From assembly GCA_029569495.1 (NCBI GenBank), contig JAKQTB010000047.1, positions 1 to 53,603 on the forward strand: 53,603 nucleotides of DNA, read 5' to 3'. Source of the DNA: Pseudomonadota bacterium (GTDB lineage: Bacteria; Pseudomonadota; Gammaproteobacteria; Burkholderiales; Methylophilaceae). The notes beneath the pieces are model-generated. The model saw only the letters and a program-made list of their open reading frames with translations, searched no databases and was not told the origin of the DNA. Made by a program: the position numbers and the translations under genes. Positions 5,153-48,460 of this stretch are shown piece by piece; positions within the stretch are counted from its first letter, which is position 1, and every line of letters starts with the position of its first letter.

Positions 5153-6325
5153 CTAAACGCCAGATTTAAACTTGGTGTAAAAGCGCGTTAAAGTCCGTTT
5201 GGCTTCTTGGCTTTCAACACCTGGTGGCACTAGTTTTGCAATATCTTCATCAGATAAGTAGATGGACTTATTATTTTTAATTTCTTCATCAACAAACTCT
5301 GTAGCCGCTTTATTAGGGTTTGCATAGGTCACCTCATTGGTAATAGATGCCGCCACTTCAGGACGCATGACATAATTGATGAATAAATGTGCGTTATTAG
5401 GATGTTTTGCATCCGCAGGAATCGCCATGGTATCCATAAAAATCAAGCCACCAGTTTTTGGTACAAGGGCTACAATATTTTGCTCGGCTTTATTTTCTAT
5501 TGAACGCTTGCGTGCCAAGTTGATATCACCTGCCCATCCATAGGTTACACAGACGTTACCACCTGCCAAATCTTCAATTTGGCCGCCTGAATTAAACTTT
5601 TTAATGTGTGGGCGCACTTTCATGAGCATATCAAATGCTGCCTGATAATCATCATTTGATGCGGTGAATACCGGCTTGCCTAAATAATGCAATGCCGCCT
5701 GAAACACGTCCGTTGGCGTATCCAGAAACGTGATGCCACATGACTTTAGCTTACTGGTATAAGTTGGATTAAACACGAGATCCCATGCATTTTCAGGCAT
5801 CGGGGTGTCGCCCAATGCGGCTTTTACTTTATCTTCATTAATACCCACGGTGTTATAACTCCACATCCAGTCCACTAAGTATTGGTTACCGGGGTCAACA
5901 CCTTCCATTTGTTTTAAAATGCCCTCATCTAAATTTTTCCAGTTAGTGAGTTTAGTTTTATCTAACTTTTGAAACAAACCGCCCTCAATTTGCTGTTTGG
6001 CCCAATTGGATGAAGGTACAACGATGTCGTAACCTGTGTTCTTGGCGATTAATTTGGCATGTAAAATTTCATTACTATCAAATACATCGTAACGTACTTT
6101 GATGCCGGTTTCTTTTTCAAAATTTTCTATGGTATCGGGCGCAATGTAGTCAGACCAGTTGTAAATATTAAGAATTTTTTCTTCCTCGCTGGCAACCGTT
6201 GATTGCGCAACTTTTGCATCGCTGGTGGTTTCCTTATTACTGTCAGTACATGATACTGAACCAAAGCCAACAATCGCCAAGCTCACCATCGTACATAAAA
6301 GACGTTTGTTCAATAAAATTTGCAT
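5153..6325 (-). CDS. potF: Polyamine-binding periplasmic protein, PotF family
   Basis: ILNIYNWSDYIAPDTIENFEKETGIKVRYDVFDSNE... typical PotF/PotD; likely start at internal ATG 6325 (MQILLNKRLLCTMVSLAIVGFGSVSC, signal peptide or lipoprotein-like) rather than ORF-track start 6391. Confidence 0.92.
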   Translation of the reverse strand: MQILLNKRLLCTMVSLAIVGFGSVSCTDSNKETTSDAKVAQSTVASEEEKILNIYNWSDYIAPDTIENFEKETGIKVRYDVFDSNEILHAKLIAKNTGYDIVVPSSNWAKQQIEGGLFQKLDKTKLTNWKNLDEGILKQMEGVDPGNQYLVDWMWSYNTVGINEDKVKAALGDTPMPENAWDLVFNPTYTSKLKSCGITFLDTPTDVFQAALHYLGKPVFTASNDDYQAAFDMLMKVRPHIKKFNSGGQIEDLAGGNVCVTYGWAGDINLARKRSIENKAEQNIVALVPKTGGLIFMDTMAIPADAKHPNNAHLFINYVMRPEVAASITNEVTYANPNKAATEFVDEEIKNNKSIYLSDEDIAKLVPPGVESQEAKRTLTRFYTKFKSGV

Positions 6326-10350: not shown

Positions 10351-10416
10351 CAAACCTTTTTCGATGCCCTGGAAGCCTTATAAATAAAGGCTCGCAGAGC
10401 ATAATTTTATTCTCGG
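10351..10416 (+). repeat. Dispersed hairpin repeat, copy 1 (T-tail)
   Basis: caaacctttttcgatgccctggaagccttataaataaaggctcgcagagcataattttattctcgg; aligned by eye to eight other copies. Confidence 0.9.
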
Positions 10417-11395: not shown

Positions 11396-11460
11396 CAATC
11401 TTTTTAGATGCCCTGTGAGCCTTATAAATAAAGGCTCGCAGAGGCATAAAAAATCCTCGG
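11396..11460 (+). repeat. Dispersed hairpin repeat, copy 2 (A-tail)
   Basis: caatctttttagatgccctgtgagccttataaataaaggctcgcagaggcataaaaaatcctcgg. Confidence 0.9.
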
Positions 11461-19481: not shown

Positions 19482-19546
19482 AAACCTTTTTCGATGCTCT
19501 GGAAGCCTTGTAAATAAAAGCTTGCAGAGGCATAAAAAATCCTCGG
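19482..19546 (+). repeat. Dispersed hairpin repeat, copy 3 (A-tail)
   Basis: aaacctttttcgatgctctggaagccttgtaaataaaagcttgcagaggcataaaaaatcctcgg. Confidence 0.9.
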
Positions 19547-21328: not shown

Positions 21329-21393
21329 CAACCTTTTTCGATGCCCTGCGAGCCTTATAAATAAAGGCTCGCAGAGGCAAAAAAAATCCTCGG
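21329..21393 (+). repeat. Dispersed hairpin repeat, copy 4 (A-tail)
   Basis: caacctttttcgatgccctgcgagccttataaataaaggctcgcagaggcaaaaaaaatcctcgg; near-perfect stem. Confidence 0.93.
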
Positions 21394-27583: not shown

Positions 27584-27673
27584 CGCAAATACTCAGTTTA
27601 TGACAATGATTCTAGTGTAGAACGAATTAAAATTTAATCAAGGCAAAAAGCAAGAAATCATGTCAAATTTCGC

Positions 27674-27738
27674 CCGAGAAAAAAATAATGCTCTGAGAGC
27701 CTTTATTTATAAGGCTCTCAGAGCATCGAAAAAGGTTG
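27674..27738 (-). repeat. Dispersed hairpin repeat, copy 5 (T-tail, inverted orientation)
   Basis: On + strand: ccgagaaaaaaataatgctctgagagcctttatttataaggctctcagagcatcgaaaaaggttg; perfect long stem. Confidence 0.93.
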
Positions 27739-27771: not shown

Positions 27772-28881
27772 TCATTTTGCCGCTTTAAATTTTTCAAACG
27801 CTTCCGCCCTCACGTTGATGAGATTGCCATCGAGCGTTTCTGGCGCAGTGAGGCGACTAAAGTCTTCAGGGGCTAAAAATAGCGAACGATCATTGCGCAT
27901 TTCACCATTGACTAAAGGTGTTGAAGCCTTGTTCGGGTTGGCATATTTTGTGGCATTGGTAATGCCCGCGTGCACTTCTGGACGAAGAATATAATTAATA
28001 TATTGATGGGCATTATTGGGATGTTTGGCATCTTTAGGAATCGCCATGCTATCTAAAAACAACAATGCGCCTTTTTCAGGAAACACTGGCGCAATGTTTA
28101 AGCCATTGCCTTTTTTGATGGCTTCGCTGCGTGCGCGATAAAAATCACCACCCCAGCCAATCGCCACGCAAATGGATTGATCCCCAAGTTTTTCCGCTTG
28201 ACCTTCTGATGTAATGGTTTTGATATCAGCGCGCACTTTTTTTAACATAGCCGTTGCCGCTGCGTAATCTGCGGGGTTATTACTAAAGGCTGGCTTTCCA
28301 ATATAGTTAAGTGCAATTGGCATAATGTCAGTGGGCGAATCCAAATACATAATGCCGCAGCTTTTTAGTTTAGTGGTGTAAGTTGGATTAAAAACGAGCT
28401 CCCATAGATTTTTCGGCATTGGCGTTTTACCCAAAGCTTGAATCACTTTATCCACGTCCAGACCTATGGTCGTGTAACCCCATAACCAGCCTGCCAGATA
28501 AGCATTGCCAGGGTCAGCTTTATTCAGCTTCACTAAAACATCCGGGTCAAGATTTTTAAAATTTGGAATTTTACTTTTATCTAGCTTTTGTAGTAAACCG
28601 CTGTTAATTTGCGCTTTAGCCCAATCTGATGATGGAACAACAATATCATAGCCGGATTTTTTAGAACGTAATTTTTCATCGAGCACTTCATTGCCATCGT
28701 AAGTGTCATAACGCACTTGAATGCCGGTTTCTTTCTCAAAGTTTTTAATGGTTTCTGGCGCAATGTAATCAATCCAGTTATACACATACAATACTTTCTC
28801 TTCCTCTTTTGCCACGCTGATACCGGCAAAACTCATACTTAATAGCGCACCTAGCAATGCAATAACCAGACTATTTTTCAC
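27772..28881 (-). CDS. Polyamine-binding periplasmic protein, PotF family (second, orphan copy)
   Basis: VLYVYNWIDYIAPETIKNFEKETGIQVRYDTYDGNEVLDEKL; Sec signal peptide. GTG start at 28881 preferred (preceded by GAAGGA); ORF-track start 28896 is TTG. Confidence 0.92.
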   Translation of the reverse strand: MKNSLVIALLGALLSMSFAGISVAKEEEKVLYVYNWIDYIAPETIKNFEKETGIQVRYDTYDGNEVLDEKLRSKKSGYDIVVPSSDWAKAQINSGLLQKLDKSKIPNFKNLDPDVLVKLNKADPGNAYLAGWLWGYTTIGLDVDKVIQALGKTPMPKNLWELVFNPTYTTKLKSCGIMYLDSPTDIMPIALNYIGKPAFSNNPADYAAATAMLKKVRADIKTITSEGQAEKLGDQSICVAIGWGGDFYRARSEAIKKGNGLNIAPVFPEKGALLFLDSMAIPKDAKHPNNAHQYINYILRPEVHAGITNATKYANPNKASTPLVNGEMRNDRSLFLAPEDFSRLTAPETLDGNLINVRAEAFEKFKAAK

Positions 28882-32870: not shown

Positions 32871-32963
32871 GGTTGCATGAATAGAAATTTGGCTGGGGAA
32901 ATTGGCAGATTGTTAGGCGTAAAACTGGGGTTTAAAAGCGTATAAAACTGCTGTTTAAACACA

Positions 32964-33028
32964 CAACCTTTTTCGATGCTCTGCGAGCCTTTATTTACAA
33001 GGCTTCCAGAGCATATTTTTTCTCTCGA
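32964..33028 (+). repeat. Dispersed hairpin repeat, copy 6 (T-tail; inverted core)
   Basis: caacctttttcgatgctctgcgagcctttatttacaaggcttccagagcatattttttctctcga; core reads as the reverse complement of the copy 1/3 cores while flanks keep + orientation. Confidence 0.9.
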
Positions 33029-33096
33029 GTGAATTTAGTGAATTTAGTGACTTTACTACTTGCATCATTGTGCAATTAATCATGCGCGCCTGATGG

Positions 33097-34314
33097 TTAC
33101 TTCAACACTTCGTTGATTTCAATTTCCACATTTTCACCAACCGGTTTCATCACGGCAGACATGCCCTGCAAATCGCCAGATATCGGTTTGGCATCTCCAC
33201 TTTTTGAAATGCGCGCCACTACTACCACTGCATCCGCTTGTGAGAGCTTATTGCTGGGCATAATCGCGGATGTGTCATCTAACTGAAACTGATAAGGCAA
33301 ATCTTTTGCACTAGCGCGCACAATCGCAATTGGCATGGGTGCGCCCTGCGCCGCACGGGCAAATACAAATAGGGTAGCATTGGCATCTAACGCTTTGGTC
33401 AAGGCGGGAGACAAACGCACAGTGCCACGAATACCAGCATTCACTGCCACTTTTTGTACTGAAGTGGATTTTGTTTCACCAGCAAGCGATTGCGCTTTGG
33501 CGATTGCCGCTTTGATATCTGGGATAATTTCGGCCTCTTTAGGTAACTCTGTGATAATTTTCTCCCACAGCGCAATGGCCTCTTTATAATCTTGACGATC
33601 ATACGCGGCGGTGGCCAGCAACATTTTTGCTTTTATGTTGCGTGCATCTATTTTTAGGGCTTGGTTGGCCAACTCAACAGGCAAGCCTTCTAACTTATAG
33701 TCATTGGTTGCCGCCAGTGCATCTGCATAATCAGCATAGAGTTGTGCGTTATCGGTGATTTTTTTGGTGGCTTGTTCGTAGGCTTTTACGGCCTCCGCAT
33801 ATTTGCCAATTTTGACATATGAATTTGCCAATAAAGCCCAGCCGGCGCCATCATCAGGATTTTTTTCAAGCTTTGCCGCTAATGATGCCAGCAAACCTTC
33901 CACATCGGCCTGCGTCATCGGCTTGCCATCCATCATGGCAGCCCCCGTTGGGTTCACAATGGCTTCTGGGTTGCCAATTTTAACGTACAGCCAAAAAGCT
34001 GTCAGTGGCACCAAAAAAACCAGTATTACAGCGAGTCGGCGGTCTGGTTTCGCAACCGTGGCTGCGAGCGGGCTACTTGTGACTTCATCCAGCATTCGCC
34101 GTTCTAGCTCGGTTTTGGCAAGCTCATACTGCGCTGCATCTAACACGCCGCTGGCTAAATCCTGTTCAATCTCGGCAAACTGCGCGCGAAAAATCTCGCG
34201 CCTTTGTGCGTTATCATCGCGATTCAAAGTCGATTGCGGACGCAATAATGCTGGAATGAGCATGACCAACACCATGCCAATCAACAAAAGTGCTGCTGTT
34301 AGAAAACCCCACAT
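33097..34314 (-). CDS. ccmI: Cytochrome c biogenesis protein CcmI (TPR)
   Basis: Two N-terminal TM segments, TPR region NPDDGAGWALLANSYVKIGKYAEAVKAYEQA. Confidence 0.92.
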   Translation of the reverse strand: MWGFLTAALLLIGMVLVMLIPALLRPQSTLNRDDNAQRREIFRAQFAEIEQDLASGVLDAAQYELAKTELERRMLDEVTSSPLAATVAKPDRRLAVILVFLVPLTAFWLYVKIGNPEAIVNPTGAAMMDGKPMTQADVEGLLASLAAKLEKNPDDGAGWALLANSYVKIGKYAEAVKAYEQATKKITDNAQLYADYADALAATNDYKLEGLPVELANQALKIDARNIKAKMLLATAAYDRQDYKEAIALWEKIITELPKEAEIIPDIKAAIAKAQSLAGETKSTSVQKVAVNAGIRGTVRLSPALTKALDANATLFVFARAAQGAPMPIAIVRASAKDLPYQFQLDDTSAIMPSNKLSQADAVVVVARISKSGDAKPISGDLQGMSAVMKPVGENVEIEINEVLK

Positions 34315-37406: not shown

Positions 37407-37472
37407 TCGAGAAAATTTTACGGTTCTGTGAGCCTTTATTTATAAGGCTTACAGAGCAGCTAAAAAGGGTTG
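37407..37472 (-). repeat. Dispersed hairpin repeat, copy 7 (T-tail, inverted orientation, divergent)
   Basis: + strand: tcgagaaaattttacggttctgtgagcctttatttataaggcttacagagcagctaaaaagggttg. Confidence 0.88.
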
Positions 37473-41262: not shown

Positions 41263-41328
41263 CAAACCTTTTCATCACCTCTGCAAGCCTCTTAAAGTAA
41301 GGCTCGCAGAGGCATTGTTTTCTCTCGG
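41263..41328 (+). repeat. Dispersed hairpin repeat, copy 8 (T-tail, divergent)
   Basis: caaaccttttcatcacctctgcaagcctcttaaagtaaggctcgcagaggcattgttttctctcggg. Confidence 0.85.
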
Positions 41329-48262: not shown

Positions 48263-48326
48263 CAACCTTTTACGCATGGCTGCGAGCCTTATAAAAAAGG
48301 CTTCCAGAGCATCTTTTTTTGCTCGG
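48263..48326 (+). repeat. Dispersed hairpin repeat, copy 9 (T-tail)
   Basis: caaccttttacgcatggctgcgagccttataaaaaaggcttccagagcatctttttttgctcgg. Confidence 0.88.
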
Positions 48327-48383: not shown

Positions 48384-48460
48384 TGGTAGGCAGTACCAGA
48401 TTCGAACTGGTGACCTCTTGGATGTCGACCAAGCGCTCTAACCAACTGAGCTAACCGCCT
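48384..48460 (-). tRNA. tRNA-Val (anticodon GAC), with encoded CCA
   Basis: Minus strand AGGCGGTTAGCTCAGTTGGTTAGAGCGCTTGGTCGACATCCAAGAGGTCACCAGTTCGAATCTGGTACTGCCTACCA folds as a cloverleaf; anticodon loop TC-GAC-AT. Confidence 0.96.

Follow-up and report, generated by a model that had tools for sequence, protein, structure and literature searches.

How could a hairpin come to carry its core in reverse between flanks that have kept their orientation? The question is raised by positions 32964–33028 of a 53,603-nucleotide stretch of DNA (the window), which is the whole of contig C126 in a MAG of 239 contigs belonging to the genus of Methylotenera sp. P-RSF-NP-04. This source genome (G000; 2.25 Mb) is 94% complete, and the base-level analysis covered ~1.0 Mb of it; both it and the sister-species genome discussed below are draft metagenome bins, with gene calls made as simple ORFs. 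The site is copy 6 of nine copies in the window of a repeated element that runs from a left flank, CAACCTTTTTCGATG, through the hairpin CTCTG NN AGCCTT (7-base loop) AAGGCT NN CAGAG to CAT, a T-tract and CTCG. The conserved sequence spans only ~60 bp, with conservation gone past ±34 bp from the hairpin centre, and its conserved ends, CAACC and CTCG, each lie outside the stem.

Copy 6 lies between convergent genes, an aldehyde dehydrogenase gene upstream (PF00171; 31374–32870, plus strand) and a gene for a CcmH/CycH-type TPR protein of cytochrome c biogenesis downstream (33097–34314, minus strand). From 32964 it reads CAACCTTTTTCGATGCT CTGCGAGCCTTTATTTACAAGGCTTCCAG AGCATATTTTTTCTCTCG, as the first-pass annotation had quoted it. 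Its left flank (32964–32978) and its right flank, the T-tract and CTCG (33013–33028), have normal polarity on the plus strand. Between them, the hairpin ATGCTCTG NN AGCCTT loop AAGGCT NN CAGAGCAT (32976–33014, plus strand), with its symmetry centre at 32995, carries the inverted loop TATTTAC (32992–32998, plus strand), of which the forward-type equivalent is GTAAATA. The folding energy of this hairpin as DNA was −11.8 kcal/mol (z = −4.9). Searching for the core of copies 1 and 3 recovered it here on the minus strand with one mismatch, bearing out the annotated inversion of the core between unchanged flanks; the window held seven core matches, and 100 shuffles of it held none.

Six of the other copies have forward loops: copies 1 (10352–10416), 2 (11396–11460), 3 (19482–19546; loop GTAAATA) and 4 (21329–21393) on the plus strand, and copies 5 (27672–27738) and 7 (37408–37472) on the minus strand. 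The loop of copy 8 (41264–41326, plus strand), TTAAAGT, is divergent and its polarity not assignable, and the A/T-rich arms that flank this copy are in phase. Copy 9 (48263–48326, plus strand) has the inverted-type hairpin arms reported for it (CG..TC), and its loop, earlier called ambiguous, reads as forward-type with one base missing. Because copy 9 pairs inverted-type arms with a forward-type loop, arms alone are not diagnostic of inversion. This copy occupies one of the few copy-bearing divergent regions and adjoins a minus-strand tRNA gene (48387–48460), a tRNA being the sole match in an Rfam search of the window. Elsewhere in the window, a 282-nt direct repeat (5915–6196 and 28534–28815, 70% identity) lies within two large ORFs, which are probably paralogous genes.

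The family is abundant in two species. At ≤3 mismatches, we found 230 copies in the source genome, against 0 for a reversed-pattern control, and 169 copies in the bin USOA134_metabat.83 (G041), a sister species with 81–89% nucleotide identity at most matched loci; 24 congeners had 0–5 copies each. When 84,980 species were scanned, the exact core turned up only in two Pseudomonadota bins and in Methylotenera sp. P-RSF-NP-04, the latter being congener G001 (the common match lies on the same contig and coordinates), and viral contigs yielded no match to the core. G001 is a distant congener with very few copies; one of them, of the forward type (L119:10526), appears to have persisted at the site orthologous to L006, so the family seems to predate its expansion in the two species. 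At ~1414–1494 of L077 (G000:C127), a second palindromic stretch has apparently been inserted in the loop, splitting the element. Two other descriptions of the element were considered and set aside. Outer terminal inverted repeats matched their own partners no better than swapped ones, their similarity being that of common A/T phasing, and for DNA uptake sequence pairs, half-sites outside hairpins were few and many of them were partial copies.

To classify polarity, we oriented copies by their flanks alone and scored the loop afterwards. Loops fell into two states, forward RTAAAYA and inverted TRTTTAY, with all seven bases switching together. Among 120 flank-oriented copies of the source genome, 100 were forward, 19 inverted and one other; the enlarged set (n = 159) gave 125, 33 and one unassigned. 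The sister species set, still including up to five copies from G010, the bin of another species, gave 67, 35 and two other. Copies from G010 were dropped from later comparisons owing to a 3190-bp contig (L126, G010:C161) that is 99.9% identical to L244 (G000:C185), a pair that points to cross-binning between MAGs. Partial loop states were nearly absent and one-step intermediates were absent, so the outcome that would have explained copy 6 by point changes, with arm and loop variants assorting independently, was not what we obtained. Loop position 1 varies in forward copies of the source genome (18% non-A) and position 7 never does; in its inverted copies, position 7 varies (42%) and position 1 almost never does. 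The variant bases mirror each other in both species, as reverse complements must. The loop is thus firmly established as inverted. Forward loops outnumber inverted ones in both species (79:21 and 66:34), so the forward and inverted states may be unequal.

Comparison of orthologous loci in the two species revealed that loops flip at fixed sites. Matching by 1.7-kb flanks left 59 pairs once a cross-binned pair and a doubtful one (L079/L153, apparent orthologues with opposite flanks) had been removed. Flank orientation agreed at all 59, and loop polarity was discordant at 18 (11 forward/inverted and 7 inverted/forward) and concordant at the remainder (33 forward/forward and 8 inverted/inverted). 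Since 18 loops differ while every flank is kept, separate insertion of pre-inverted copies is excluded as a general explanation. Flips occur in both directions with the flanks fixed, and therefore inversion in place is recurrent and reversible, a statement about the set of loci whose single events were not polarised by an outgroup. Independence between the species predicts ~41% discordance, and the observed 31% is about three quarters of this, while the flanking arms of these orthologous copies are ~70–79% identical; flipping thus appears to be rapid relative to base substitution. The orthologue of copy 6 (L216:3159) is also inverted, with TATTTAC in both species, so the inverted state of copy 6 is probably old and predates the species split. 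There is no sign of active switching at copy 6, and this shared state makes active inversion within one culture less likely there.

The first-pass annotation had proposed that the loop and both arm asymmetries of the hairpin all flip; this holds for the loop, and for the arms it holds statistically, in the source genome only. There, the asymmetry (GA in the left arm only versus TC in the right arm only) reverses with the loop (Fisher P = 0.0013; 25:9 versus 3:11); the sister species by itself shows no such reversal (P = 0.64; 7:8 versus 4:2), and pooling the two gives P = 0.03. Flipped arms were preferred to unflipped ones in the source genome with a log10 likelihood ratio of +8.2, compared with a mean of −6.3 (sd 2.8) for random forward sets. 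Among the 18 discordant orthologous pairs, three favoured flipped arms, none favoured unflipped arms and 15 were uninformative. An inversion reaching into the arms is therefore probable, and the arms are weaker evidence than the loop because the sister species, taken by itself, gives no significant reversal.

These observations favour inversion of the core in place by template switching within a REP-like family, a reading to which we assign a probability of about 0.8; its physical route, a template switch during replication, is the inferred part. At the hairpin, the nascent strand would anneal to the opposite strand at its complementary arm, the loop would then be copied from that strand, and a switch back would leave the loop and inner arms reverse-complemented and the flanks unchanged. 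Template switching between the arms of short inverted repeats is reported to yield homogenised arms and inverted spacers and to be reversible and recurrent (PMC8604942; PMC8794818). Both products are present here: inverted loops, and arm dinucleotides that are complementary in 41% of copies versus 22% with shuffled partners, a difference that selection for pairing would also give. Reverse-complement loops sit between unchanged flanks, and they recur and revert within fixed sites. The earlier suggestion that the pattern is what template switching or inversion would leave is supported by the seven loop bases changing together, the 18 of 59 discordant orthologues and the unmoved flanks. Cruciform breakage and repair is a possible alternative route to the same inversion. 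In a recombinase-driven invertible element an invertase would act on long inverted repeats; the inverted part here, a 7-bp loop plus inner arms, appears too short for known invertases.

What the element does is suggested by its surroundings. A/T runs recur on either side of the hairpin centre at ±39, 50, 61, 73, 85, 96 and 108, more weakly at 119 and 130, with a best period of 11.3 bp and flanking arms reaching about ±130 bp. At copy 6, the left flanking arm (32884–32959) has A/T runs near −39, −50, −61, −73, −85, −96 and −108 from the centre, and the runs of the right one (33031–33106) mirror them, becoming weaker past +85. Across the source genome, the two arms mirror each other with r = 0.87 (109 copies) or 0.90 (146 copies). 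All 146 copies examined there and all 98 in the sister species were in phase at the mirror centre; since part of the source-genome set had served to fit the period, the sister species is the fairer test, albeit one in which many copies are orthologous. Such phasing was almost absent from coding DNA and from the rest of the intergenic DNA. Between orthologues, W-to-S changes occurred at 0.098 per W site in the tracts and 0.195 in the spacers, whereas A–T interchange was about equal (0.084 and 0.075). Tract W-to-S change is thus half that of spacers while A–T interchange is equal, and therefore A/T content rather than sequence is held, as a role in DNA shape or wrapping would demand. Two other detectors of phasing were discarded: a matched filter for phased arms lacking a hairpin was non-specific, firing widely even in a congener almost devoid of copies, and Fourier power over whole intergenic regions diluted the signal too far to serve.

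Copies are concentrated at gene ends. According to the simple ORF caller on which occupancy is based, copies were borne by 48 of 63 convergent intergenic regions in the source genome (76%), 65 of 185 tandem ones and 6 of 68 divergent ones, and the sister species gave 37 of 49, 43 of 128 and 4 of 52; divergent regions were thus 8–9% occupied. Having many intergenic copies and a preference for gene 3′ ends, the element is a REP-like extragenic palindrome in the wide sense.

Position, symmetry and phasing together suggest a bent or wrapped gene-end site. The element may work by bending or wrapping DNA, with gyrase or a nucleoid protein as candidate binder, a proposal drawn from sequence patterns to which we give slightly less than even odds. 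It would serve as a topological marker at the 3′ ends of genes, where positive supercoils accumulate through transcription. A right-handed wrap favours a period above 10.5 bp, and the 11.3-bp arms might reflect this preference. More tentatively, the family could represent a new kind of bacterial chromosomal element, in which a palindrome occupies the dyad of ~260 bp of A/T runs, mirror-symmetric and phased at 11.3 bp, and lies between most convergent genes, where DNA would be wrapped or a supercoil apex pinned, and repeated extrusion or stalling would flip the centre far more often than happens in ordinary hairpins.

On the main rival reading, the element acts above all as an intrinsic terminator of transcription or a stabiliser of mRNA 3′ ends, the hairpin and T-tract acting as RNA and the loop sequence being irrelevant. 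Its location agrees with this, since in tandem pairs the element centre lies ~82–86 bp beyond the upstream stop, as do the above-chance complementarity of the hairpin arms, the best copies, such as copy 5 with its 17-pair stem followed by T7, and a mild preference of the sister-species copies for the sense strand (30:13, P = 0.014). The source genome has no strand preference (34 sense, 31 antisense), although the T-tract follows the stem on one strand only; in 47% of forward copies the arm dinucleotides pair by half or not at all, and an RNA role leaves the mirrored A/T runs out to ~±130 bp unexplained. We therefore regard this as rather unlikely to be the chief role, while an RNA role could coexist with one in DNA.

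We also consider it unlikely that the family is a selfish MITE or RAYT-mobilised REP that spread recently, with the two polarities derived from two master copies and bent flanks serving as the preferred target. The jump from at most five copies in each of the 24 congeners to 230 in the source genome and 169 in its sister species is what such spread would produce, and the confinement of sequence conservation to ~60 bp also fits. Against this, no Y1_Tnp (PF01797)/RAYT transposase was matched at E ≤ 0.01 in the 94%-complete genome, where controls were detected; orthologous copies occupy the same sites in both species and flip within them; the A/T content of the flanking arms is constrained after insertion; and there is no terminal inverted repeat past the conserved part. 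Assembly artefacts at palindromes are a very improbable source of the inverted loops, even with two draft bins and the cross-binned G010 contig, since hairpin arms of ~14–17 bp should fall below usual assembly k-mers and far below read lengths, two separately assembled species both have copy 6 inverted, and both show mirrored loop variants.

If the core is inverted by template switching and the element acts through DNA shape, a flip would be tolerated because the element would be used as a near-symmetric double-stranded object, and flipping would be a mutational by-product. Template-switch loop inversion is usually encountered one isolated case at a time; each of these genomes records it in bulk, in several hundred near-identical hairpins with fixed flanks and asymmetric loops, making its rate, direction and context dependence measurable. 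What REP and BIME elements do is a long-standing question; for this REP-like repeat, the mirror-phased arms point to a physical role through DNA shape and predict binding of gyrase or a nucleoid protein at convergent gene ends.

Compared with known systems, the inversions resemble those at hairpins in yeast genes, RNA genes and chloroplasts, in which a loop is flipped between near-perfect arms, recurrently and reversibly, and the arms are homogenised. Loop-only inversions in bacterial RNA genes are rare, and have been called very rare (PMC8794818), whereas here they distinguish 18 of 59 orthologous loci of one bacterial repeat family. As in REP/BIME of E. coli and other bacteria, there are hundreds of short imperfect intergenic palindromes; REPs lie mainly between convergent or co-directional genes and are defined by a GTAG/CGTC tag (PMC3733652). 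Here the foot of the palindrome lacks this tetranucleotide, the conserved ends CAACC and CTCG lying outside the stem, no RAYT was found, and the window has no BIME-type clusters. Mirror-phased A/T flanking arms also set the element apart from 83 sampled E. coli REPs, which had no phasing, with an amplitude of 0.001–0.004 versus 0.105 here. Gyrase binds the BIME-2 palindromes of E. coli, and its motif there comprises a symmetric centre and two 10.75-bp-periodic GC arms, 130 bp in all (PMC6379681). By analogy, gyrase is a candidate binder here, if a doubtful one. Like that motif and strong sites such as Mu SGS, the element has a symmetric centre flanked by two wings in which A/T and G/C are phased with the helix; unlike the E. 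coli motif, its period is 11.3 rather than 10.75 bp, its arms extend to ~±130 rather than ±66 bp, and its centre is a conserved palindrome.
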